NCBI GenBank assembly: GCA_029248525.1
Contig: JAQWJE010000008.1
Span: forward strand, 248,001-312,000
Reading direction: 5' to 3'
Source of the DNA: Candidatus Binatia bacterium
Lineage (GTDB): Bacteria; Desulfobacterota; Binatia; UBA12015
DNA: 64,000 nucleotides
Of this stretch, positions 14,764 to 27,450 are shown in pieces. The notes under the pieces are model-generated. The model ran no database searches. It was not told where the DNA came from and saw only the letters and a list, made by a program, of their open reading frames with translations. Position numbers and translations under genes: made by a program. How positions within the stretch are numbered: position 1 is the first letter of the stretch; the number at the start of each line of letters is the position of its first letter.

Positions 14764-15435
14764 ATGCAAATCGAAGCAATTGGACTGCACAAGGAGTACC
14801 GGGACGGCGCTCGCCGGGTGTCGGTCCTCGCTGATGTCGATCTGTGCGTGGAACCCGGGGAACGCCTGGGCATTATCGGCGAGTCGGGGATCGGAAAAAG
14901 CACACTCCTGCATCTTCTCGGAGGGTTGGACCGCCCGTCCGGTGGCACAGTTCGGATCGGCGATACCGACCTTAATAAGTGTGATGATCGGGAGCTGGCT
15001 CATCTGCGCAATCACAGGATCGGCTTTGTGTTCCAGTTCCATCACCTTCTGGGCGATTTCACCGCGCAGGAAAATGTCATGATGCCATCGCTGATTGCGG
15101 GGGCTTCCCCCGAAGAGGCCGCCCGGCGCAGCCGTGAATTGCTGGCCCGCGTCGGTCTGGAAGACCGTCTGTCACATCGCCCGGGTGAGCTCAGCGGCGG
15201 AGAACAGCAGCGGGTCGCTGTCGCCCGGGCGATTGTTCGATCGCCAGCACTCGTTCTCGCCGACGAACCGACCGGGAACCTCGACCCCCAAACCGCCGCC
15301 GAGGTGGAAGATCTCCTGCGAGAGCTGAACCGGGAACAGGGTCTGACCCTTGTGGTCGTGACACATAGCGAGCGTCTGGCGCGAGAAATGGATCGCTGTC
15401 TGCGGTTGCGCGGCGGAAAGCTGGAAGCGGCATGA
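14764..15435 (+). CDS. lolD: Lipoprotein-releasing ABC ATPase LolD
   Basis: A 223-residue ABC ATPase. It has Walker A GESGIGKST, Q-loop FVFQFHHLLGDFTAQENVMM, signature LSGGEQQR, Walker B ALVLADEPTGNLD and the switch His (VTHS). Together these are typical of the LolD/MacB group. A GTG at 14752 is the alternative start; GGTGAG seven bases before the ATG at 14764 favours the ATG. The stop overlaps the bamA start by 4 bases (ATGA), coupling lipoprotein export to outer-membrane assembly genes. Confidence 0.93.
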   Translation: MQIEAIGLHKEYRDGARRVSVLADVDLCVEPGERLGIIGESGIGKSTLLHLLGGLDRPSGGTVRIGDTDLNKCDDRELAHLRNHRIGFVFQFHHLLGDFTAQENVMMPSLIAGASPEEAARRSRELLARVGLEDRLSHRPGELSGGEQQRVAVARAIVRSPALVLADEPTGNLDPQTAAEVEDLLRELNREQGLTLVVVTHSERLAREMDRCLRLRGGKLEAA

Positions 15436-17804
15436 GAATGAAGCAGTTTTTGCGCAGCATGATGCTCCTGGCGCTCGTCCTCGGCTTGGGCCTTGGGGGG
15501 CCGACAACGCTGATCGCCGCGGATCCGACGATCAGCGCGATTCGGATTCGCGGCAACGATCGCGTGGACGAACAGGCCATTCTGATTCATATGAAGATGG
15601 AGGCCGGCGACGTCTATACGCCGAAGGGGGCTGACGAAGATCTCCGAGCAGTCTGGGACCTGGGCTTCTTCAACGACGTCCAGATTCATATCGACCCCAC
15701 GCCGAACAAGCGTGGCCAGATTATCCTCACGCTGGAAGTAGTCGAACGACCGCTGATCGACGGGGTTTCGATCGAGGGCGATCACGACGTGGATGCAACC
15801 AAACTCGATCAGGCCCTCGGCGTTCGGGCACGAACGATTTACGACCCCGAAAAGGTGCGCAAGGGGATTGTCCGGGCGGACAAGCTGTTTGAAGAGGACG
15901 GCTATCTCGACGCTTCGATCAAGGCCCGATTGGACCCCGGCGAACAAAAGGGTGAAATCGAACTCGTCTACGTCATCGATCAGGGTCAGCCCGTCCGAGT
16001 TTCGGATATTCGATTCGAAGGCAATGAGGAATTCAGCAGTCGTGAGCTTCGGGGCGTCATGGAAACCAAGGAGGCCTGGTTCCTCTCCTGGCTTCTTGAT
16101 TCGGGCATGCTCAAGAATGAAATTCTCGACACGGATATGGAGCGTCTGAAGGCGTTCTATTACGACAGCGGATACGTCAATGTGCGAATCGATACCCCCG
16201 AGGTCGAGCGCAAGGATGATGGAATCGAAGTTCTGATTCGGATTTCCGAAGGCGAGCAATTCGAGTTCGGAGAGATCCGCTTCGTTGGCGATACCAGCAC
16301 CGAGCATCCGATGGAGGAGGCCGAGCTCTTCAAGGAGGTCGAGAGTCAGTCGGGCAAGACCTTTCGGGCAAGTTTCCTGCGCAAGGATGTCGAGTCCCTG
16401 ACCGATTTCTTTGGTGACCAAGGGTACGCTTTTGCCAACGTGGAACCCGAGACGACCGTCCGCCCGGACGAACGGAAGGTGGACGTACGTTTCCGCGTCG
16501 ATCGCGGACGACCGGTGAAGATCGCACGCATCGACGTGACCGGTAACAGCAAAACACGGGACAAGGTCATTCGGCGGGAGCTCAAGGTCGGCGAGCAGGA
16601 GACCTTCTCGGCAACCAAGTTGAAAAAAAGTCAGGACGCGCTCAACCGGACCGGGTTCTTCCAGAACGTCAATGTGACGACACGGAAGTCCGACAGCGAC
16701 GACGCAATCAACCTTCTCGTGGACGTGAAAGAGGGCTCGACGGGAACCTTCAGTGCGGGCGCCGGGTTCAGTTCGGATGATCGGTTCTTGTTCAACGTTC
16801 GAGTTTCGGAGAACAACCTTTTCGGACGTGGTCTCCGCGTGGTGCTCAACGTCGATGTGGGCTCGATTCGGCGCAATATCTACGTTTCGGCAACCGACCC
16901 ATATTTTCTCGACACAAAGTTCCTGACCACCGCGACGGTGTTCGACTACCGACTGGAATTCCCGGACTTCTCACGTGAGGCTCTCGGGTTCTCGGTTCGG
17001 GCGCTCTATCCAATCGAGGCGCTCGGGATTACCCATATCGGGCCGATCTCCTTCGAAGACAGTCGCATCGGCTTCGAGTATCGATTGGAACAGGCCCGCA
17101 TTTCGAATATTTCCCTTTTTGCGCCGCCGGATGTCTACGCATCGGGTGGTCGAGAGGTGATCAGCGCACTGGCACCTTCGTTCCTCCGCAACACTCTCAA
17201 CCACGCGTTTGATCCGACCGAGGGCTCTTATCAGGACGTTTCTCTCGAATTTGCCGGCATTGGCGGGGATACGACGTACTTTCGAGCCGAAGCGCGAGCA
17301 CGCTGGTTTATCCCGATTCTGGAAGTGGGTTCACTTGGCCCGCTCGTCTTCTCGTCCGGCGGCCGGATTGGCTGGGGCATTGGCGAGGCGGGCGTCTCGG
17401 GGCGTGAGATCCCTCTGATCGAGCGATATTTCCCGGGTGGGATCAACAGTGTACGTGGCTACCAGGTCCGTACACTCGGTCCGCGTGAGGAAGTCTTTGG
17501 TCCGCAGGGCCAATCTCTCGGCTACGAGCCCGTTGGCGGAACCAACCAGCTGATCGTCCAAAGCGAATTCATTATCCCCCTGGTGCCGCAGTTAGGCCTG
17601 CGCGGAGTGGTCTTTTTTGACATGGGCAACGCCTGGCTGCAAAAAGATGGGATTGATTTTGGGGATTTACGTTACTCCGTTGGAGGCGGGGTCCGTTGGC
17701 TCTCGCCTTTCGGACCGTTAAGGATTGAATTCGGCGTTCCGTTGAACCTCGGCGAGTTCGAGCAGAAAGAGGGGATTCTCTTCTCTTTCGGAGCACCTTT
17801 ATAA
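15432..17804 (+). CDS. bamA: Outer-membrane assembly factor BamA
   Basis: This 790-residue protein has a signal peptide (MRMKQFLRSMMLLALVLGLG), five POTRA domains (about 30-430, starting ISAIRIRGNDRVDEQAIL) and a C-terminal beta-barrel. The signature RYFPGGINSVRGY near residue 666 is the VRGY-type barrel lid motif of BamA, and the last residues FGAPL form the final strand. It is the central insertase for outer-membrane proteins. Upstream lolCD and downstream skp are its usual neighbours. Confidence 0.97.
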   Translation: MRMKQFLRSMMLLALVLGLGLGGPTTLIAADPTISAIRIRGNDRVDEQAILIHMKMEAGDVYTPKGADEDLRAVWDLGFFNDVQIHIDPTPNKRGQIILTLEVVERPLIDGVSIEGDHDVDATKLDQALGVRARTIYDPEKVRKGIVRADKLFEEDGYLDASIKARLDPGEQKGEIELVYVIDQGQPVRVSDIRFEGNEEFSSRELRGVMETKEAWFLSWLLDSGMLKNEILDTDMERLKAFYYDSGYVNVRIDTPEVERKDDGIEVLIRISEGEQFEFGEIRFVGDTSTEHPMEEAELFKEVESQSGKTFRASFLRKDVESLTDFFGDQGYAFANVEPETTVRPDERKVDVRFRVDRGRPVKIARIDVTGNSKTRDKVIRRELKVGEQETFSATKLKKSQDALNRTGFFQNVNVTTRKSDSDDAINLLVDVKEGSTGTFSAGAGFSSDDRFLFNVRVSENNLFGRGLRVVLNVDVGSIRRNIYVSATDPYFLDTKFLTTATVFDYRLEFPDFSREALGFSVRALYPIEALGITHIGPISFEDSRIGFEYRLEQARISNISLFAPPDVYASGGREVISALAPSFLRNTLNHAFDPTEGSYQDVSLEFAGIGGDTTYFRAEARARWFIPILEVGSLGPLVFSSGGRIGWGIGEAGVSGREIPLIERYFPGGINSVRGYQVRTLGPREEVFGPQGQSLGYEPVGGTNQLIVQSEFIIPLVPQLGLRGVVFFDMGNAWLQKDGIDFGDLRYSVGGGVRWLSPFGPLRIEFGVPLNLGEFEQKEGILFSFGAPL

Positions 17805-17824: not shown

Positions 17825-18340
17825 ATGAAACTTACGCAGATGATTTTCGCTCTTCTCCTCGGTTTTTTCCTGGCAAACCCGGGAACAGCATCGGCCGAAG
17901 GGAAAATTGCTTTCGTGAACTTGCAGCGTGCCGTTGAGGAGTCTGCGGCGGGGAAAGCGGCCCTCGCGGAGTTCCAGACCTACGTGGCGAACAAGCGCAC
18001 GGAGATCGAGGCGGACCAGAAATCCCTCACCACGCTTCAGGAAGACATTGAGCGCAAGGCTGTCGTGATGAATGAGGACGAGAAGCGCAAGCTCGTTCGT
18101 GAGTTCGAAGACAAGCAGATTGACTTCCGACGCAAGGTGGAAGAGGCGCAGGTTGATCTCCAGGCACGCCAGCAGTCCGTCTACAACGAACTTGGCGGCA
18201 AGGTGAAGCAGGAGGTGCTGAAGCTCGGCACCAGTGGCGGCTATACCGCAATTCTTGATTCGGGAGCAGCGCTCTATTCGGATTCGGCTTCGGATGTGAC
18301 GGATCAGATCATCAAGGCGTTCGACGCCAATAATGGATAA
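17825..18340 (+). CDS. skp: Periplasmic chaperone Skp/OmpH
   Basis: A 171-residue protein with a signal peptide (MKLTQMIFALLLGFFLANPG, then TASA) followed by the OmpH domain: IAFVNLQRAVEESAAGKAAL, a long coiled coil rich in Lys and Glu, and a C-terminal GGYTAILDSGAALYSD strand. It holds unfolded outer-membrane proteins on their way to BamA. A GGAAGGA site precedes the ATG. Its neighbours (bamA upstream, fabZ/lpxA downstream) are the classical order, except that lpxD is missing. Confidence 0.95.
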   Translation: MKLTQMIFALLLGFFLANPGTASAEGKIAFVNLQRAVEESAAGKAALAEFQTYVANKRTEIEADQKSLTTLQEDIERKAVVMNEDEKRKLVREFEDKQIDFRRKVEEAQVDLQARQQSVYNELGGKVKQEVLKLGTSGGYTAILDSGAALYSDSASDVTDQIIKAFDANNG

Positions 18341-18354
18341 GTGAGGGCAGGCCC

Positions 18355-19620
18355 TTGTCGGGCATTGAACATTTGCCAATCGAGCTGCTTCCTCATAAAT
18401 ACCCCTTCCTCCTGATCGACAGGGTGGTTGAGGTAGAGCCGGGGAAGCGGCTTGTGGCGCTCAAGAATATCACTCGGAACGAGCCGCAATTCAGCGGTCA
18501 TTTTCCGGACCGACCGATCATGCCGGGAGTGCTTCTCTGCGAAGCGATGGCACAGGCCGGGGGGATGCTGGTCCACGGAACCCTCAATGATGGTTTCGAT
18601 ATCGACCGGGCGGTTCAGGAGTTGTTCCTGGTCCTGACGACGCTGGAGCATGTCCGGTTTCGTCGCCAGGTCGTGCCGGGGGATCAAGTTCGTGTGGAAG
18701 TGGAACTGGTGCGCAAGCACCGACCTCTCTGGAAACTCAAGGGTCGTGCGACGGTCGAGGGTCAAGTCTGCGCACAGGCGGAGTTTTCGACCGTCGAGAT
18801 CGATCCTTCAATTACACCCGGCGGTCCCGAGAAACCGACCTCGGTGGACATCCATGAAACCGCAGTGGTCGCCAAGGGCGCCGAGCTCGAGGCGGGTGTT
18901 GTTGTCGGTCCATACTCGATTATCGGCGCCAACGTTCATTTGGGGCCCGACGTTCGGGTGGAATCCCATGTGACGATCGATGGTCATACCACCATCGGTC
19001 GGGAAAGTGTGATCTCTCCCTATGCGAGCGTGGGTTCCGTCCCGCAGGACTTGAAGTTCCACGGCGAGGATTCGCGATTGGTGATCGGGGAGAGAAACCG
19101 GATTCGCGAGTCGGCGACTCTGAGCATCGGTACCGAAGCGGGTGGCATGGAAACCACTGTCGGGAACGACAATCTCTTCATGAATTTCAGTCACGTGGCG
19201 CATGACTGCAAGGTCGGTGACAACTGCGTTCTGGCAAACGGCGCGCAGGTGGCCGGCCATGTCTCGCTGGAGGACCGCGTCATTGTTTCGGGACTCGCTG
19301 CGATCGCTCAGTTTATCCGCGTGGGCGAATCGGCTTTTCTCGGCGGTGGCTCGATGGTCGTGAAGGATATTCCTCCGTTTTGTCTGGCCAGTGGCGATCG
19401 GGCCCGCCTGGTCGGTTTGAATGTGGTCGGCCTCGAGCGGCGCGGTTTTGCCGCCGAGGAGGTTTCAGCCTTGAAGCAGGCTTATCGTGTCTTGTTCCGC
19501 TCCAAGCGTGTTCTGAAGGAAGCGCTTGCGGAGGTGCGGCAGGACATGGGGGCATGGCCGCGGGCGGTACAGTTGGTCGAGTTCGTGGAGGCGTGCGAGC
19601 GCGGCGTAACGCGCCCCTAG
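18355..19620 (+). CDS. fabZ-lpxA: FabZ-LpxA fusion: 3-hydroxyacyl-ACP dehydratase / UDP-GlcNAc acyltransferase
   Basis: One 421-residue open frame encodes two enzymes. Residues 1 to about 150 are FabZ: catalytic His in LLPHKYPFLLIDRV and catalytic Glu in GHFPDRPIMPGVLLCEAMAQ. Residues about 163-421 are LpxA: left-handed beta-helix hexapeptides (VVVGPYSIIGANVHLGPDVR), the catalytic-His segment SHVAHD near residue 279 and a helical C-terminal domain. FabZ makes acyl-ACP for fatty acid synthesis, and LpxA uses 3-hydroxyacyl-ACP for the first step of lipid A, so the fusion links two users of the same intermediate. I see no stop or internal start signal at the junction. The start codon is TTG. The usual lpxD before fabZ is absent. 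Confidence 0.95.
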   Translation: MSGIEHLPIELLPHKYPFLLIDRVVEVEPGKRLVALKNITRNEPQFSGHFPDRPIMPGVLLCEAMAQAGGMLVHGTLNDGFDIDRAVQELFLVLTTLEHVRFRRQVVPGDQVRVEVELVRKHRPLWKLKGRATVEGQVCAQAEFSTVEIDPSITPGGPEKPTSVDIHETAVVAKGAELEAGVVVGPYSIIGANVHLGPDVRVESHVTIDGHTTIGRESVISPYASVGSVPQDLKFHGEDSRLVIGERNRIRESATLSIGTEAGGMETTVGNDNLFMNFSHVAHDCKVGDNCVLANGAQVAGHVSLEDRVIVSGLAAIAQFIRVGESAFLGGGSMVVKDIPPFCLASGDRARLVGLNVVGLERRGFAAEEVSALKQAYRVLFRSKRVLKEALAEVRQDMGAWPRAVQLVEFVEACERGVTRP

Positions 19621-19629
19621 GCTGTATTT

Positions 19630-20454
19630 GTGGGAGAAGCCAAGCTCGCCTTGATAGCCGGAAACGGCGTGTTTCCGGTTCTGGTCGCTCGCGGAGCCCG
19701 AGCTTGCGGTGTGACGGTCGTCGCGGTCGCGCATCGAGACGAGACCGACCCCTCGATCGAGGAGGAGGTCGACTCCTGCACTTGGGTGAAAGTGGGTGAG
19801 CTCGGCCGAACCATTCGAACGTTCGTCGCCGCCGGCTGCGATCACGCGGTGATGGCGGGAGGCATTGGCAAGGTGCAGGCTCTTAGTTCGGTACGACCGG
19901 ACTGGCGGGGTGCCGCATTTCTTTTGCGCATGCGCACCTTGCAGGACGATCGCTTGTTGCGAGGGATCGCCGAGGAAATCGAAAAGGAAGGCATGCCTGT
20001 CGTGTCTTCAACCAGATATTTACCCGACCTCGTGCCGACTCCCGGGAACCTGACGAAAAAAAAGCCCTCGGCGAGTCAGATTCGGGACATCGAATTCGGA
20101 CGCCGGGTTCTTGCGGCGACCGGACCCTTCGAAATTGGCCAAACCGTCGTGGTCAAGGACGGTCTGGTCTTCGCGCTCGAGGCGGTGGAAGGGACCGACG
20201 CCGCGATTCGGCGGGGGTCGGAGCTCGCGAGCGGCGGTGCTGTGGTGGTGAAGGCCGCGAAGCCGGAGCAGGACCTCAGATTTGATGTGCCCGCGATTGG
20301 TCCCGAGACCATTGCTCTGATGAAGGAAGTCAATGCTTCTGTTCTTGCGGTCGAGGCGGGAAGAACCATTATTCTGGAACGGGACACGGTGCTTGCGGCC
20401 GCCGAGGCCGCCTCCATTCGGATTCTGGCATTTGATGCGGAGAAGGATTCATGA
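19630..20454 (+). CDS. lpxI: UDP-2,3-diacylglucosamine pyrophosphatase LpxI
   Basis: A 274-residue LpxI, the DUF1009 enzyme that hydrolyses UDP-2,3-diacylglucosamine to lipid X, replacing LpxH. Seen features: LALIAGNGVFPVLVARGAR at the start, the MAGGIGK turn, STRYLPDLV, and RFDVPAIGPETIALM near residue 215, the region carrying the catalytic Asp. It starts with GTG, 9 bases after the fabZ-lpxA stop, and overlaps the next gene by 4 bases. LpxI is the form known from alpha- and many deltaproteobacteria. Confidence 0.93.
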   Translation: MGEAKLALIAGNGVFPVLVARGARACGVTVVAVAHRDETDPSIEEEVDSCTWVKVGELGRTIRTFVAAGCDHAVMAGGIGKVQALSSVRPDWRGAAFLLRMRTLQDDRLLRGIAEEIEKEGMPVVSSTRYLPDLVPTPGNLTKKKPSASQIRDIEFGRRVLAATGPFEIGQTVVVKDGLVFALEAVEGTDAAIRRGSELASGGAVVVKAAKPEQDLRFDVPAIGPETIALMKEVNASVLAVEAGRTIILERDTVLAAAEAASIRILAFDAEKDS

Positions 20455-21389
20455 GTTCGAATAAAGCGCGCGCGGCCGTGGTTGGCACCGGTCATCTGGG
20501 AACCTTCCATGCCGAGAAGTATGCGGCTATCGAAGCCTGTGATCTCGTCGGCGTTGTCGATGTGGACCACGAGCGCGCACGCGCTTTGGCTGATCGTCTT
20601 TCCTGCAAGGCTTTTTCGTCGCCGATGGATTTGGTCGGCAAGGTGGACTGCGTGAGTGTTGCCGTTCCGACCACGCTGCATCGCTCTGTTGCCGGCGAAC
20701 TTCTCGAGGCAGGAGTGGATTGTCTCGTGGAAAAACCCCTGGCTGCGAGCGGTGCCGAGGCCGACGAGTTGGTGGCCCTCGCGCGAGAGCACGGCTGCAT
20801 CCTGCAGGTCGGCCATCTCGAGCGTTTCAACCCGGCGTTGATTCGTCTGGCGGGGATGATTCGCAAACCGCGGTTTGTAGAATGTCATCGTCTGGCCCCA
20901 TTTACGCCGCGCGGCGCCGACGTCGACGTCGTGCGGGATCTGATGATTCATGATCTGGATCTGATCGGGCTGCTCCAGCCGGCGGAAATTGTACATATCG
21001 ACAGTGTGGGCATTCCGGTGCTGACGCCAAACGTCGACCTGGCCAATGTTCGAATTCGTTTCGCCGACCGATGCGTGGCCAATGTGACCGCGAGTCGGGT
21101 GTCGGGCAAGCGGGAGCGCAAGTTACGTTTGTTTCAGGAGGATCTCTATCTCGCTATCGATTTGGGGGAGCGCAAGGCGCAAGTGGCACATCGTCGATCC
21201 GGCACCGATGCTGCGCTCGAGATAGACTGGGAAGAGTTGGATCTGGGGGAGGGGGACGCTCTGGAAGCTCAGATTCGGGCGTTTGTCGCCTCCGTTCAGA
21301 CCCGCGCGCGGGCGGCAACCACCGGGGAAGATGGGAGCCGGGCGCTCCATCTTTGTGAGAGAATTCTCACCTCGATGGAGACCGAGTGA
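20451..21389 (+). CDS. Gfo/Idh/MocA-family oxidoreductase (GnnA-like)
   Basis: This 312-residue NAD(P)-dependent sugar dehydrogenase has a Rossmann motif (AAVVGTGHLGTFHAEKYAAI), the conserved EKPLA motif near residue 98 and a substrate His region (DLMIHDLDLI). Its place between lpxI and lpxB is shared with Gfo/Idh genes of other lipid A clusters. In Acidithiobacillus, GnnA of this family, with transaminase GnnB, makes UDP-GlcNAc3N, which lets lipid A carry amide-linked chains at the 3 position. No GnnB-like transaminase lies nearby, so a GnnA role is possible but not shown. It overlaps both neighbours by 4 bases. Confidence 0.8.
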   Translation: MSSNKARAAVVGTGHLGTFHAEKYAAIEACDLVGVVDVDHERARALADRLSCKAFSSPMDLVGKVDCVSVAVPTTLHRSVAGELLEAGVDCLVEKPLAASGAEADELVALAREHGCILQVGHLERFNPALIRLAGMIRKPRFVECHRLAPFTPRGADVDVVRDLMIHDLDLIGLLQPAEIVHIDSVGIPVLTPNVDLANVRIRFADRCVANVTASRVSGKRERKLRLFQEDLYLAIDLGERKAQVAHRRSGTDAALEIDWEELDLGEGDALEAQIRAFVASVQTRARAATTGEDGSRALHLCERILTSMETE

Positions 21390-22522
21390 GCGGGTCGCCG
21401 CATGTGTTGCTGGTCGCCGGGGAGTCCTCCGGGGACCTTCGCGGGGCGGAACTGGTCCGCGCCCTGCGAGACAAGGTCCCCGGCATCACCTTTTCCGGCG
21501 TCGGCGGAGACCGTTTGAGGGCTGAGGGAATGGAGATCCTGGTTGCGGCTGAAGAGCTGTCGATCATGGGCTTGACCGAGGTGGTCGGACAAGCGGGAAC
21601 GATCCTGAGTTCCTATCGAAAGATACGGCGTGCCATTCTTGGCAAAGACGGCGCTCGACCCGACTTGGTGATCCTGATCGATTTTCCGGATTTCAATCTG
21701 CGGTTGGCAGGGGTGGCGAAACGAAATGGGATTCCGGTCTTTTACTATGTGGGTCCGCAGGTCTGGGCCTGGCGTCGGTACCGGATCGGAACTCTTGCCC
21801 GGCGTGTTGATCGCCTCGCGGTCGTGTTTCCCTTCGAAGCAGATCTCTACAAGGGTCTGACCCGGGTGGATTTCGTCGGGCATCCTGCGTTGGAGACCGT
21901 ACGGGCTGATTCCACGCGATCATTTGTACGCGCAGAATTGGGTCTTTCCGAGGAGCAGCGTCTGGTCGCCGTCCTCCCGGGCAGTCGCCGCGCCGAAATC
22001 AACAGCCTCCTGCCGATTTTTCAGGGTGCGTTGGCCAGGCAACGTGACGTCCGGGGTGTGATTGCCCTGGCGGGCGAGGAACTGCGTCCGACAGCGGAGT
22101 CTCTGGCGGACCCCGACCTGCCGATTTTAACTGGTCGGACCTGGGATCTGGTGGCCGCAGCCGATTTGGTTTTGCTCTCGTCGGGTACCGCGACTCTCGA
22201 GACAGCCTTGCTTGGGACACCGATGGTGGTGGCCTATCAGCTTTCTCCGCTGAGTTTCGCCATTGCCAAACGTCTGGTGCAGGTCGACCATATCGCCATG
22301 CCCAACCTGATTCTCGAGCGTCGGGCGGTTCCGGAATTGGTGCAGGACGAGGTGACCGTCGACCGGGTGGCGGCTGCTGCCAGCGAGATTCTGGAGGACC
22401 CGGAACTCTCCGCAAGAATGCGTCGAGATCTGGCTTTGGTTCGTGAAAGGCTAGGAACCCCGGGGGCTGCAGACCGCGCCGCCGACATTGCGATCGAAAT
22501 GCTCAGGCCCGCGAATGTCTAG
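21386..22522 (+). CDS. lpxB: Lipid-A-disaccharide synthase LpxB
   Basis: This 378-residue GT19 glycosyltransferase condenses lipid X with UDP-diacylglucosamine to form the tetraacyl disaccharide 1-phosphate. Motifs include the N-terminal VAGESSGDLRGAELVRAL, YYVGPQVWAWRRYR, the FVGHP and LPGSR motifs, and SSGTATLETALLGTPMVVAYQ. It begins with GTG overlapping the upstream stop (GTGA). LpxC and LpxD are the acyl-chain steps not found here. Confidence 0.95.
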   Translation: MSGSPHVLLVAGESSGDLRGAELVRALRDKVPGITFSGVGGDRLRAEGMEILVAAEELSIMGLTEVVGQAGTILSSYRKIRRAILGKDGARPDLVILIDFPDFNLRLAGVAKRNGIPVFYYVGPQVWAWRRYRIGTLARRVDRLAVVFPFEADLYKGLTRVDFVGHPALETVRADSTRSFVRAELGLSEEQRLVAVLPGSRRAEINSLLPIFQGALARQRDVRGVIALAGEELRPTAESLADPDLPILTGRTWDLVAAADLVLLSSGTATLETALLGTPMVVAYQLSPLSFAIAKRLVQVDHIAMPNLILERRAVPELVQDEVTVDRVAAAASEILEDPELSARMRRDLALVRERLGTPGAADRAADIAIEMLRPANV

Positions 22523-22578
22523 CCAGTTGCGTGGTCTTTTGGACCGCGGGCCTCGAATCCGCTAGGCAAAGGCTGCCG

Positions 22579-24345
22579 ATGCCGGAGCGTTCCAACTATA
22601 AGCGCCTTCTGGCGTATCTCAGGCCCTATGTCTGGCCGAGGTTCGTCGTTGCCCTCTTCGCGACCGTTCTGTTCAGCGCCACCAATGGCGCCGTGCCTTT
22701 TCTGATTCGCTTCATCTACGACGATATCTTCGAGAATCGCGATGCACAGATGCTCACTCTGATGCCCTTTGCTGTTTTCGGTCTTTTTGTGTTCCGCGGC
22801 GTGGCGAATTTTACCAGCAGCTATCTAACGGAGTGGGTCGGTCAGCGGGTCATCGCCGACCTTCGAGCCGACCTGAATCGAGCGATTCAATACCTGCCCT
22901 TGTCGTTCTTCAACCGGACGCCAAGCGGAACGATCGTCTCGCGCATGACGAGCGATGTCGCACAGGTGAGTGCTGCGGTTACGCAAGCTTCGATCGTGAT
23001 CCTGCGCGATACCGCGTCACTAATCGCGACGATTACGGCAGCCTTTCTCATGGATTGGGTTCTGGCTCTGATTGCCTTTGTCGTGTTTCCGGTGGCGGTC
23101 CTCCCGGTTCTCAGTCTCTCGAGGCGGCTCAGGAAATATTGGAAGAAGGGACAGGAGACGCTGGGAGGACTGGCCTCGCTGGTTCAGGAAACGGTTCAGG
23201 GGAATCGAATCGTAAAAGCCTTCGGCATGGAGGATTATGAAGAGAGCCGATTCGGCGCGGAAAACGAGCGTCTCTTCAAGTTTTACGTAAAAGCGGCTCG
23301 CTCGCGCTCGCTGGTCCAACCGATCATGGAGGTGCTCGCGGCGGTCGGGATCGCTGCTGTCCTCTGGTACGGCGGCTACAGCGTGATTCATGGGGAACGA
23401 ACGACGGGTGCCTTCATGGGCTTCGTGGCCGCGCTGATTCTGGTCTACGACCCATTCAAGGGACTCGCTCGAGTCAATGCGACGATTCAGCAGGGGATGG
23501 GGTCCGCGGATCGGGTCTTTGAGATTATTGACGAAGAGACCGATGTCCCGGATCTGCCCGAGGCACCAGCGGTGAAGCCCTTTGCTGGGGAAATGATCTT
23601 CGAGAAAGTCTCCTTCTCCTATCCCCCGCGGGAAGGTGAAGCGGTCGCTTCACCGGCTCTTCGCGGGATTGATTTGAGAATTGCTCGCGGCGAGGTCGTG
23701 GCGTTGGTGGGGGCGAGCGGCAGCGGGAAGTCGACCCTGAGCGACTTGCTGGCCAGGTTTTATGATCCGACCGAGGGGCGAATTCTGTTCGATGGGACAG
23801 ACCTCCGGGAGGTTTCGTTGAAATCCCTGCGGGCTCAGATCGGTGTGGTCACGCAGCAGACGTTTCTTTTTGACGATACGGTCGGGGCCAATATTGCTTA
23901 TGGTGGCGACGCGTCCAGTCTTGAAAAACTCGAGGCTGCGGCGCTGGCTGCGCATGCCAGCGAATTCGTTCATAAACTTCCATCCGGGTTCGCCACGGAA
24001 ATCGGCGAAGCCGGGGTGGCCTTGTCGGGCGGGCAACGACAGCGCCTGGCCATCGCACGCGCCTTGCTGAAGGATGCTCCGATTTTGATTCTCGATGAGG
24101 CGACTTCGGCTCTGGATTCGGAATCGGAGAGGTTGGTGCAGGCAGCGATCGATCATCTGATGACCGGGCGGACAAGTCTGGTGATTGCGCATCGCCTCTC
24201 GACGATCCGACGTGCCGACCGGATCGTTGTTTTGAGCGACGGACGGATTGTGGAAGAGGGTACGCACGAAGCCTTGTTGGCCCTCGGGGGACAATATCGG
24301 CGCTTGCATGACCAGCAGCAGCTTTTCTCGGAGCCATCCGAGTGA
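22579..24345 (+). CDS. msbA: Lipid A flippase MsbA (ABC transporter)
   Basis: A 588-residue half-transporter with an N-terminal six-helix domain and an ATPase domain: Walker A GASGSGKSTL near 377, signature LSGGQRQR, Walker B ILILDEATSALD and the switch His (IAHRLSTI). Length and position in the lipid A operon support MsbA, which flips core-lipid A to the periplasmic leaflet. The frame allows a GTG start at 22531; the ATG at 22579 gives the typical N-terminus and is preferred. It is followed by the acyltransferase gene with a 4-base overlap (GTGA). Confidence 0.93.
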   Translation: MPERSNYKRLLAYLRPYVWPRFVVALFATVLFSATNGAVPFLIRFIYDDIFENRDAQMLTLMPFAVFGLFVFRGVANFTSSYLTEWVGQRVIADLRADLNRAIQYLPLSFFNRTPSGTIVSRMTSDVAQVSAAVTQASIVILRDTASLIATITAAFLMDWVLALIAFVVFPVAVLPVLSLSRRLRKYWKKGQETLGGLASLVQETVQGNRIVKAFGMEDYEESRFGAENERLFKFYVKAARSRSLVQPIMEVLAAVGIAAVLWYGGYSVIHGERTTGAFMGFVAALILVYDPFKGLARVNATIQQGMGSADRVFEIIDEETDVPDLPEAPAVKPFAGEMIFEKVSFSYPPREGEAVASPALRGIDLRIARGEVVALVGASGSGKSTLSDLLARFYDPTEGRILFDGTDLREVSLKSLRAQIGVVTQQTFLFDDTVGANIAYGGDASSLEKLEAAALAAHASEFVHKLPSGFATEIGEAGVALSGGQRQRLAIARALLKDAPILILDEATSALDSESERLVQAAIDHLMTGRTSLVIAHRLSTIRRADRIVVLSDGRIVEEGTHEALLALGGQYRRLHDQQQLFSEPSE

Positions 24346-25082
24346 GGCTGCTGCCCGCGGGATCTCGCCGGGAACGAGCTTTCGTCTGGATGGGAGGTCT
24401 GCTCATCTTTCTCGTCCTCCAATTCCTGCGTTGGACGACGCGATCTTCTTTCGAGGGAGAAGAGGAACTTTTCTCGCGCTTTGCGTCTGAGGAGCCTGTG
24501 ATCCTGGCTTTCTGGCACGGCCGGCTTGCGATGATGCCCTTTGCTTATCGAGGTCGCGGTGCCTGCATCATGAATAGCCGTCATCGCGACGGTGCATTGG
24601 TCTCTCGGGCGATCGAACGCCTGGGGATCGAGGTCGTGCACGGTTCGAGCACTCGGGGGTGGGTGGGTGGATTGAAGGGCCTGCTTGCGGCGCATGAACG
24701 CGGTCTCGATATCGTGGTCGTCCCTGACGGGCCAAAAGGCCCGCGCTGCAAGGCCAAGCCGGGCATTCTGCAACTGGCGCGCGCGACTGGTGCGCCGATT
24801 TATCCAGTTGGCTATTCGGCAACGAGTTTTGGATTTCTGTCCCGCAGCTGGGATCGACTTCTGCTCCCCAAGCCGCTCTCTCATGTGCACTATGTCGCGG
24901 GCGATTGCGTGCGGGTTCCGGCAGCGGCAAGTGCCGCCGAGATGGAAGAAGCTCGACGTCTCCTCGAGGCGCGCTTGGTGGGCGTGGCCGCGCGCGCCGA
25001 CGAACTTGCCGGTATTCCAGCGGCCCTGTCGGCGGAATGGTTGGCGACAGCACCCGCGCCTTCGGCGGGATCAAAGGGCTGA
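24342..25082 (+). CDS. DUF374 lysophospholipid acyltransferase-like, possible lipid A late acyltransferase
   Basis: A 246-residue protein with one N-terminal hydrophobic stretch and the DUF374 core: AFWHGRLAMMPF (HX4-type catalytic block), the HRDGALVSRAIERLG strand, VVVPDGPKGPRCKAKPGILQLA near residue 127 and GAPIYPVGY. DUF374 proteins include LpxJ, a Campylobacter/Helicobacter acyltransferase that adds a secondary chain to the lipid A precursor before Kdo. Position between msbA and waaA fits that role. Substrate and order are not shown by sequence. It starts with GTG overlapping the msbA stop and ends in a 1-base overlap with waaA. Confidence 0.83.
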   Translation: MRLLPAGSRRERAFVWMGGLLIFLVLQFLRWTTRSSFEGEEELFSRFASEEPVILAFWHGRLAMMPFAYRGRGACIMNSRHRDGALVSRAIERLGIEVVHGSSTRGWVGGLKGLLAAHERGLDIVVVPDGPKGPRCKAKPGILQLARATGAPIYPVGYSATSFGFLSRSWDRLLLPKPLSHVHYVAGDCVRVPAAASAAEMEEARRLLEARLVGVAARADELAGIPAALSAEWLATAPAPSAGSKG

Positions 25083-26365
25083 TGGCTAAATTTCCGGCAC
25101 CTCTGGTTTTGCGGCTTTATAACCTGCTTCTCGCACTCGTGGGGATGATGAGCCTGCCTCTCGTCCTGCTTGGTCTGCTCTGGCGGGCTGAAGCACGCCG
25201 GGGTCTCGCTGCGAGACTCGGTTTCGGTTGGCCTGCGGGAACCCCGGGTGAACTTCTCTGGGCGCACGGAGCTTCGGTGGGGGAGGTGGAAGCACTGGCC
25301 CCTCTGGTCCGTCGCTGGCAGGTCGCGCATCCCCAAGCGCCGGTCGTGGTCACTGCATTGACACTGACGGGAGTCGCAACGGCCCGCCGACTCCTTCCCG
25401 GCATTCATGCGATTACGGCACCGCTGGATTTTCCGCTGGTGACCGGTCGGCTCGTCCGGCGGCTTCGCCCATCGCTTTTTCTGTTCACCGAAAATGAATT
25501 ATGGCCTAACCTCCTGTTGGCCCTGCGCCGGAAAGGGGTGCCCTCGGTGCAGGTCAGTGGGCGTGTTTCGGCCGGTGCTGCGAGTGGGCTCGCGATGTTT
25601 CCCCGATTCTCTCGCGCGGTCCTCGAATGCGTCTCGCGCTTTTTACTGCAATCCGAAGCGGACCGGAGCCGTCTCCTGTCTCTCGGGGTCGATGCGGAAC
25701 GACTTTTTGTCACGGGCTCCTTGAAGGGAAGCGGGGAGGTTCAGGAGCCTCCCGCGGTGCTTGCCAGCCTGGCCTCCCGAGAGCTGGTCGTGGCGGGCTC
25801 GACCCATGCCGGTGAGGAATTGCTTTTGGCGGAAGCGCTGCAGTCGCTGCAACGAACCCATCGAGATCTCCTCCTCATTTTGGCCCCGCGTCATCCGGAG
25901 CGCTTCGTGGAGGTAGCGGATCAATTATCCGATATGGAAATCCCGTTCCTGCGCAGGAGCGAACTCGTGGGCGCCAGGTTCCCGAAAGGCCCGCAGGTGC
26001 TGCTGCTCGATACGCTGGGAGAGTTGGCGGGCTGCTACGGGATGGCGCGAGTCGCATTCGTGGGCGGTAGTTTGGTGCCCGTGGGTGGGCACAACCTTCT
26101 CGAGCCGGCGCGCTTTGGCGTCCCCATCGTGGTGGGGCCTCATATCGAATCCGTGGCTGAGTTGGCAGACCGGCTGGAAGCTGCAGGCGGACTCCGTCGC
26201 GCGGCAACTGCTGCCGAATTGGCAGTGGAGATCGAGCATTTTCTTCATGTCCGCGATCCGGAGGCGGCCACCGCAGCGCGTGCGATGGCGGCAGAGCTCT
26301 CCGGTGCGCTCGACGATACCTGGAGGGCACTCGAGGTACCGCTGAATGGAAGGTCGCTGGTATGA
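25082..26365 (+). CDS. waaA: Kdo transferase WaaA (KdtA)
   Basis: This 427-residue GT30 enzyme adds Kdo from CMP-Kdo to lipid IVA. It has an N-terminal membrane anchor (LYNLLLALVGMMSLPLVLLGL), the conserved WAHGASVGEVEALAPL with the proposed catalytic Glu, the FTENELWPNLL block and the C-terminal GGSLVPVGGHNLLEPA. The ATG overlaps the previous stop as TGATG. A longer upstream frame reaches 24905, but this would overlap the previous gene and lacks the family start. Confidence 0.95.
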   Translation: MAKFPAPLVLRLYNLLLALVGMMSLPLVLLGLLWRAEARRGLAARLGFGWPAGTPGELLWAHGASVGEVEALAPLVRRWQVAHPQAPVVVTALTLTGVATARRLLPGIHAITAPLDFPLVTGRLVRRLRPSLFLFTENELWPNLLLALRRKGVPSVQVSGRVSAGAASGLAMFPRFSRAVLECVSRFLLQSEADRSRLLSLGVDAERLFVTGSLKGSGEVQEPPAVLASLASRELVVAGSTHAGEELLLAEALQSLQRTHRDLLLILAPRHPERFVEVADQLSDMEIPFLRRSELVGARFPKGPQVLLLDTLGELAGCYGMARVAFVGGSLVPVGGHNLLEPARFGVPIVVGPHIESVAELADRLEAAGGLRRAATAAELAVEIEHFLHVRDPEAATAARAMAAELSGALDDTWRALEVPLNGRSLV

Positions 26366-27450
26366 GGGTGGACCAGGAAAGCGGACTGCGCGAGCGCGTG
26401 CTCGTCGGATGGCGTCATCGAGGTGCCTTGCGAGTCCTCCTTGCGCCGGCAGCACTTTTATTTGGCCTCGCTGTTCGCCTCCGGGGAGCGGCCTATCGTT
26501 TTGGACTTTTCCGAACCCATGCGGTCGACGTGCCGATTGTCAGCATCGGGAATTTGACGGTGGGTGGAACTGGCAAGACTCCTTTTGCGCTGTGGCTTGC
26601 GGAACGTCTCTGCGCGCGTGGCTATCGACCGGCGATCGTCACACGTGGTTATGGGGGGGTGCTCAAGGGGCGGGTGGTGATGGTCGGTAACGGCTCTGAG
26701 CTCAGCGAAGATGTTTCAGAAGTCGGGGATGAGGCGGTGCTGCTGGCCGAGCGCGCCGGTGTTCCTGTGGTTTGCGGAGCGGATCGGGTGGCGGCTGCGC
26801 AAAAAGCTGCCTCGACAAACGAGGTCGACCTGATTGTTCTTGATGATGGTTTCCAGCATCGCCGTCTGGGGCGATCGATGGATATCGTGTTGGTGGATGG
26901 CCGGGCAGGCTTCGGAAATGGAGGGCTACTGCCGGCAGGTCCCTTGCGCGAGCCTCTGGCGGCGCTTCGGCGTGCAGATGCTGTCGTGGTCACGAAGACT
27001 CGGGAGCCTGGCGATGTCGGTGCACGGGTTTCGGCAGCGGTTCCGGGCGTTCCGGTCTTTACCGCGGGCTTCGCCCCGGCCGCAGTGATCCATTATGAGG
27101 ACGGTGAGACAATGGTCCGGCCACTCGGCACCATTGTCGGCCGCAAGATCGTGACGGTGTCCGCGATCGCTGACCCTACATCTTTTTATGAACTGCTCGG
27201 TGATCTCGAAGTCCAACCGATCGACGTGCTGGAGTATCCCGACCATCACGATTTTGACCAAGCCGACTGGCAGCAGATCTCGAAGGTTGCTCATGCGGCG
27301 GACCTGATCGTCTGCACGGAGAAAGACCTGGTGAAGTTGAGACGCTTTCCCTTCGCGCGGGGGCGCTTGGTGGCGCTTCGTCTGGAGCTGCGGATGCCTC
27401 CGGACGAGGAGGCCGATCTTCTTTCCCTGTTGGCGAGGCGGACCGCCTAG
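26362..27450 (+). CDS. lpxK: Tetraacyldisaccharide 4'-kinase LpxK
   Basis: A 362-residue P-loop kinase that phosphorylates the 4' position of the lipid A disaccharide. The P-loop VGGTGKTPF lies near residue 67, with the LDDGFQHRRLGR motif near 158 and a C-terminal domain (EKDLVKLRRF). It overlaps waaA by 4 bases (ATGA) and ends the near-continuous outer-membrane series that starts at lysS. In the usual pathway LpxK acts before WaaA; gene order here does not reflect reaction order. Confidence 0.95.
   Translation: MRVDQESGLRERVLVGWRHRGALRVLLAPAALLFGLAVRLRGAAYRFGLFRTHAVDVPIVSIGNLTVGGTGKTPFALWLAERLCARGYRPAIVTRGYGGVLKGRVVMVGNGSELSEDVSEVGDEAVLLAERAGVPVVCGADRVAAAQKAASTNEVDLIVLDDGFQHRRLGRSMDIVLVDGRAGFGNGGLLPAGPLREPLAALRRADAVVVTKTREPGDVGARVSAAVPGVPVFTAGFAPAAVIHYEDGETMVRPLGTIVGRKIVTVSAIADPTSFYELLGDLEVQPIDVLEYPDHHDFDQADWQQISKVAHAADLIVCTEKDLVKLRRFPFARGRLVALRLELRMPPDEEADLLSLLARRTA

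Follow-up and report, generated by a model that had tools for sequence, protein, structure and literature searches.

A single gene in the genome of an uncultured member of the class Binatia encodes FabZ and LpxA on one polypeptide chain, and this FabZ-LpxA protein is likely to be a genuine bifunctional enzyme that ties together, at a ratio of 1:1, two competing users of (R)-3-hydroxyacyl-ACP. The gene is located at 18355-19620 (+) of the window (the whole stretch of 64,000 nucleotides analysed here), where a single frame runs through 421 codons from a TTG start, uninterrupted by stops; in genome coordinates it is G000:C8:266355-267617, in a stop-free open frame of 428. Both activities, the fixed ratio and any benefit are inferred.

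The architecture of the fusion is a full FabZ, followed by a short linker and a full LpxA, all on the + strand. The FabZ (3-hydroxyacyl-ACP dehydratase) domain occupies 18355..18792 (residues 1-146), with Pfam FabA at residues 12-142 (111.1 bits; cut-off 23) and both NCBIfam FabZ models passed (TIGR01750, 165.1 bits, cut-off 155.15; NF000582, 163.8 bits, cut-off 113). The linker spans 18793..18843 (residues 147-163; 13 residues by profile ends). The LpxA (UDP-GlcNAc 3-O-acyltransferase) domain, at 18844..19614 (residues 164-420), passes both NCBIfam LpxA models (NF003657, 339.7 bits, cut-off 226; TIGR01852, 321.9 bits, cut-off 231.05), contains Pfam Hexapep repeats (80.6 bits; cut-off 27) and Acetyltransf_11, the LpxA C-terminal domain (residues 338-418; 91.6 bits, cut-off 24.5), and aligns without gaps to residues 5-262 of E. 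coli LpxA (1lxa). Also found are His49 (18499-18501) and Glu63 (18541-18543), which we take to be the catalytic pair of the FabZ hotdog active site, and the motif SHVAHD, whose His283 (19201-19203) presumably corresponds to the catalytic His125 of E. coli LpxA. The original prediction of a complete FabZ and a complete LpxA in one frame is thus confirmed by all four NCBIfam cut-offs, and the domain search of the full protein that it had called for recovered both domains above their cut-offs. Compared with stand-alone FabZ, the fusion has the same whole domain, with its His and Glu and its cut-offs passed, but lacks the stop at the end and continues into LpxA; compared with stand-alone E. coli LpxA, it has the same whole chain but adds the N-terminal FabZ and, in the window's own family, carries Ala at the position of His160.

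An AlphaFold2 single-chain model of the fusion, built from 43 aligned rows, has a mean pLDDT of 88.6 and a pTM of 0.68, with low-confidence residues at 1-17, 46-48 (beside His49) and 154-158 (linker); the linker block 151-160 has a pLDDT of 51. In Foldseek, LpxA structures matched one half of the model with a target TM of at most 0.98, and FabZ structures matched the other half with 0.82-0.88. Among solved structures, those nearest in sequence include 4eqy and E. coli 1lxa, both LpxA chains, as well as chains of FabZ. The fusion is modelled as two separate folds with a low-confidence join, and the relative placement of the halves is not set by a single-chain model. Since LpxA forms C3 trimers and FabZ often forms D3 hexamers, one hexamer of FabZ with an LpxA trimer at each end would fit the symmetry. 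Such a natural fusion is suited to structural work on FabZ and LpxA.

The gene is part of a run that reads, from upstream to downstream, FtsX-type permease, ABC ATPase, BamA, Skp, FabZ-LpxA, LpxI, Gfo/Idh/MocA oxidoreductase, LpxB, MsbA, DUF374 protein, Kdo transferase and LpxK; judging by position, we take the permease and the ATPase to be LolE/LolD-like. The BamA-type outer membrane assembly protein (15432..17804, +; Pfam Omp85 and POTRA, the latter in five stretches) is followed by Skp/OmpH (17825..18340, +; Pfam OmpH), directly upstream of the fusion, with 14 bases between its stop and the fusion start. Downstream, also on the + strand, are LpxI, the UDP-2,3-diacylglucosamine diphosphatase (19630..20454; Pfam LpxI_N and LpxI_C over cut-off, the NCBIfam LpxI model below it, at 143 against 400), the oxidoreductase (20451..21389; Pfam GFO_IDH_MocA), LpxB, the lipid-A-disaccharide synthase (21386..22522; NCBIfam TIGR00215, 295.2 bits, cut-off 190.25), MsbA, the lipid A exporter (22531..24345; NCBIfam TIGR02203, 631.7 bits, cut-off 602), Kdo transferase (24905..26365; Pfam Glycos_transf_N) and LpxK, the tetraacyldisaccharide 4'-kinase (26362..27450; Pfam LpxK). 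The oxidoreductase between LpxI and LpxB is possibly GnnA-like, its best NCBIfam model being UDP-GlcNAc 3-dehydrogenase (183.4 bits, below the cut-off of 450), so that a 3-amino lipid A sugar, and a corresponding LpxA acceptor, is possible. A scan for promoters and terminators gave no excess over shuffles. Gene order and neighbours are the same as in clusters with fabZ and lpxA as neighbouring separate genes, except that LpxD is missing from the window's run; an LpxD-like gene is located on G000:C14. Unfused Binatia loci have the same surrounding gene order as the fusion: a separate FabZ gene stands just before LpxA in the same run in 14 of 20, with LpxD preceding FabZ in eight, and in the other six the interval from Skp to LpxA yielded no FabZ.

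We propose that the N-terminal FabZ half would dehydrate (R)-3-hydroxyacyl-ACP for fatty acid elongation, and that the C-terminal LpxA half would use that substrate to acylate UDP-GlcNAc (or a 3-amino relative), the first step of lipid A synthesis. Because both halves would compete for one substrate, the fusion would not channel a product from one step into the next. Instead, it would fix the competitors at 1:1, couple their synthesis and degradation, and place both beside the same ACP pool. The interpretation given with the original prediction, that one chain carries the dehydratase and the acyltransferase of this branch point, is supported, and both halves would be expected to act. Competitors for a shared precursor that are covalently tied in two distant bacterial groups offer a natural construct for asking whether ratio sets balance.

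LpxC is the deacetylase of the second lipid A step and is not known to use acyl-ACP. In the bifunctional LpxC-FabZ protein (NF009667/PRK13188) of Bacteroidetes, Chlorobi and Verrucomicrobia, FabZ is C-terminal and its partner is LpxC, whereas in FabZ-LpxA it is N-terminal and its partner, LpxA, is a direct competitor for acyl-ACP. The window protein was rejected as an LpxC-FabZ, since it reaches only 145.5 bits against the NF009667 cut-off of 465, with the FabZ part alone matching, and there is no LpxC domain among its Pfam matches. The fusion previously known at this branch point is LpxC-FabZ, as had been stated at the outset and as the publications describing it indicate (PMC3087551, PMC516016); the two fusions have in common that FabZ is joined to an early lipid A enzyme encoded by an adjacent gene of one cluster. 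FabZ-LpxA is a second lipid A fusion beside LpxC-FabZ. No account of it was found in the accessible text of the literature searched, a scope that leaves out most subscription journals, and in the available parts of published cluster descriptions (including PMC12152623) fabZ-lpxA appears as neighbouring genes or as a plasmid name, not as a fusion. The architecture is probably listed in automatic domain databases.

A stop-free full fusion is present in 24 of 148 genomes of the class Binatia, in three families only: f1, to which the window belongs (11/14), f6 (6/6) and f8 (7/7). The f1 genome G010 has, in addition to these 24, a fusion interrupted by a contig end, and nothing under the E-value limit of 1e-80 was obtained from G004 (88% complete) or G118 (63% complete). 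Separate genes with an identical junction region in close relatives had been named as a finding that would count against the fusion; apart from these two of the 14, the same-family genomes are fused, and no split FabZ/LpxA pair was seen inside the three families. Binatia was surveyed as a class and five other phyla as samples. The phylum of the Terriglobia record L034, i.e. Acidobacteriota, has the fusion in 43 of 396 sampled genomes (limit 1e-110); the 76 with any row comprise these 43, 30 in which stops separate the two genes within one stretch, and three with LpxA alone. The phylum of a SeepSRB2 record yielded it in one of 297 (limit 1e-115), at the same locus as in the Binatia genome G019. 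It was not found in the samples of the phyla of a Proteobacteria record (0/398; limit 1e-115), a Bacteroidetes record (0/296; 1e-100) and an Oligoflexia record (0/290; 1e-90). All of these surveys, that of Binatia included, score only the best few candidates per genome, so that weak fusions could escape them, and the phyla are named after record titles. The view that the pairing is uncommon is correct only in part: it stands for these last three samples, but not for the three Binatia families, in which it is frequent, or for Acidobacteriota.

The fusion seems to have arisen separately in Binatia and Acidobacteriota, to judge by LpxA. Trees were built for 87 LpxA domains and 81 FabZ domains and included 18 of the 24 Binatia fusions and 20 of the 43 from Acidobacteriota. 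All the fusions from Acidobacteriota group together, with a support of 87 for LpxA and 98 for FabZ. The LpxA tree nests them among unfused as well as fused Acidobacteriota, in a starred group (98), and places those from Binatia in a second starred group (96), which takes in every Binatia row plus a single one from Desulfobacterota. A single clade of all fusions was rejected on LpxA (p-AU 0.0002); on FabZ, with 142 columns only, it was not rejected (p 0.27), which counts against the separate origins in our account. Binatia fusions as one clade were not rejected by LpxA (0.61), by FabZ (0.63) or by five neighbour genes (0.128). In the free tree of the five neighbour genes, f1 is apart from f6 and f8, fused and unfused families are interleaved, and f1 is sister to families in which no FabZ precedes LpxA at the locus, so that loss of a once-fused FabZ is possible there. 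If LpxA is trusted, there would be at least two origins, possibly three. Most likely, the stop between adjoining operon genes disappeared a single time in Acidobacteriota and at least once in Binatia, after which the fusion was retained.

A serious rival, with a substantial chance of being right if one short of even, is that drift removed the stop between these co-transcribed genes and that such a stop is hard to regain, so that both enzymes work and their link has no function. This disputes the purpose of the fusion and not its bifunctionality, and overlaps with our own explanation. It is favoured by the adjacency of FabZ and LpxA in the 14 unfused Binatia loci mentioned above, by the interleaving of fused and unfused families in the neighbour-gene tree, and by a linker that is 0-23 residues long and weakly constrained in sequence. 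Measured from profile ends, Binatia linkers have 13-23 residues in eight f1 rows, 13 in L162 (f6) and 0-3 in the other nine, and those of Acidobacteriota have 1-3 in 23 of 26 rows and 6, 6 and 14 in the remainder. The repeated origin at the same gene pair suggested by the LpxA trees, and the lack of split pairs within the three fused families, speak against drift only weakly, because adjacency alone makes repeats likely.

That both halves are active enzymes is consistent with their residues, which were counted in 44 fusions (18 of 24 from Binatia and 26 of 43 from Acidobacteriota). FabZ His49, Glu63 and Gln67 are identical in all 44, as are twelve LpxA positions (E. coli 73, 74, 76, 122, 125, 126, 143, 144, 161, 191, 198 and 204). 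Over seven fusion pairs, dN/dS was 0.035-0.24 for the FabZ half and 0.032-0.42 for the LpxA half (the FabZ dS of the window pair, 2.5, being saturated), the FabZ value being the smaller one in three pairs and exceeding that of LpxA in the other four, by a slight to a clear margin; the linker gave 0.24-1.2 in the six pairs with a value (7-20 codons). These ratios point to constraint on both domains, and to a far weaker one on the linker. The residue aligned to E. coli LpxA position 173, the acyl-length ruler, is Gly in the window protein and in every row of f1 and f6; the six f8 rows and 14 of 20 unfused Binatia have Ala there instead. Gly at this position would suit a long acyl chain.

Two features of the sequences tell against bifunctionality throughout. 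The position of E. coli LpxA His160 is Ala in all eight f1 rows (Ala318 in the window, 19306-19308, +), whereas it is His in 77 of 79 other LpxA rows, the exceptions being L140 (Leu) and L133 (Arg). His is the usual residue at this position and is not known to be a defining one; a literature search found no paper on LpxA His160. The second feature is the f8 FabZ half, which is about 15 residues shorter than that of f1 (128-133 residues in L165-L170 against 147-150) and scores 67.6-75.5 bits in PF07977 (FabA/FabZ); in one f8 row the shortening is mostly between the central helix and the next strand, and the His and Glu are retained.

It is improbable that one half, most plausibly FabZ, is catalytically dead and acts only as an oligomer scaffold or regulator, an idea in keeping with the shortened f8 domain but opposed by the invariant His49 and Glu63 and by the resemblance of FabZ dN/dS to that of LpxA. 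Searches with PF07977 bear on it in both directions. The fusion is the only PF07977 match in eight of the 24 fused Binatia genomes, which argues against a dead FabZ, and in two of seven fused Acidobacteriota genomes tested; a further match accompanies it in the other 16 Binatia genomes (that of G002 below the cut-off), a point against our preferred bifunctional enzyme. On the other hand, no PF07977 match was obtained in 10 of 23 unfused Binatia genomes, 17 of which had been picked from families without FabZ beside LpxA; all ten (G015, G021, G027, G034, G041, G056, G103, G112, G115 and G117, most >94% complete) are among these 17, and none is among the other six. Another dehydratase presumably serves fatty acid synthesis in those ten, so FabZ is replaceable within Binatia and cells may not depend on the fused copy, which favours the dead half over our reading. 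The same result weakens the notion that the fused FabZ, as sole dehydratase, must serve all fatty acid synthesis.

It is very unlikely that the one frame yields two proteins, whether through an internal translation start at LpxA or through linker cleavage. The window has an in-frame GTG at the LpxA boundary, and some in-frame ATG, GTG or TTG occurs nearby in 13 of the 18 fusions from Binatia and 20 of the 26 from Acidobacteriota; however, such a start is absent from the remaining 5/18 and 6/26, and one with a Shine-Dalgarno-like stretch exists in only 1/18 and 6/26, respectively. An assembly or sequencing error that deleted a stop, against which the original prediction had cautioned, is practically negligible: although the genome of the window is a 59-contig assembly, the same join in 23 further Binatia genomes leaves no credible case for a stop lost by chance from a single assembly, and it recurs in 43 genomes of the Acidobacteriota sample; among the contigs that carry it are those of 6.47 and 7.48 million bases, each almost a whole genome.

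Most knowledge of the balance between lipid A and phospholipid comes from E. coli and concerns the control of LpxC. A bolder version of the bifunctional reading, which we hold to be doubtful, is that FabZ-LpxA is a convergent, hard-wired branch-point enzyme, in which a hexamer with two trimers would partition (R)-3-hydroxyacyl-ACP between lipid A and phospholipid at a ratio set by the protein and would replace part of the control by FtsH proteolysis of LpxC that operates in E. coli. In that species, according to one report, FabZ and LpxA compete for (R)-3-hydroxymyristoyl-ACP and FtsH restrains LpxC (PMC6339880). In a second report, neither lpxA nor lpxC deletion suppresses the loss of fabZ in P. 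aeruginosa, although in E. coli and in K. pneumoniae disruption of fabZ is reported to suppress a defect in either lpxA or lpxC (PMC12152623).

The genome of the window also encodes a second, stand-alone LpxA-like protein of 260 amino acids (L172:7463-8242; G000:C35:137474-138235), which is around 40% identical. Its motif is SHAAHN, with Asn replacing Asp after the catalytic-type His. Second LpxA-like matches of this kind (approximately 36-45% identity) are common among the relatives searched.
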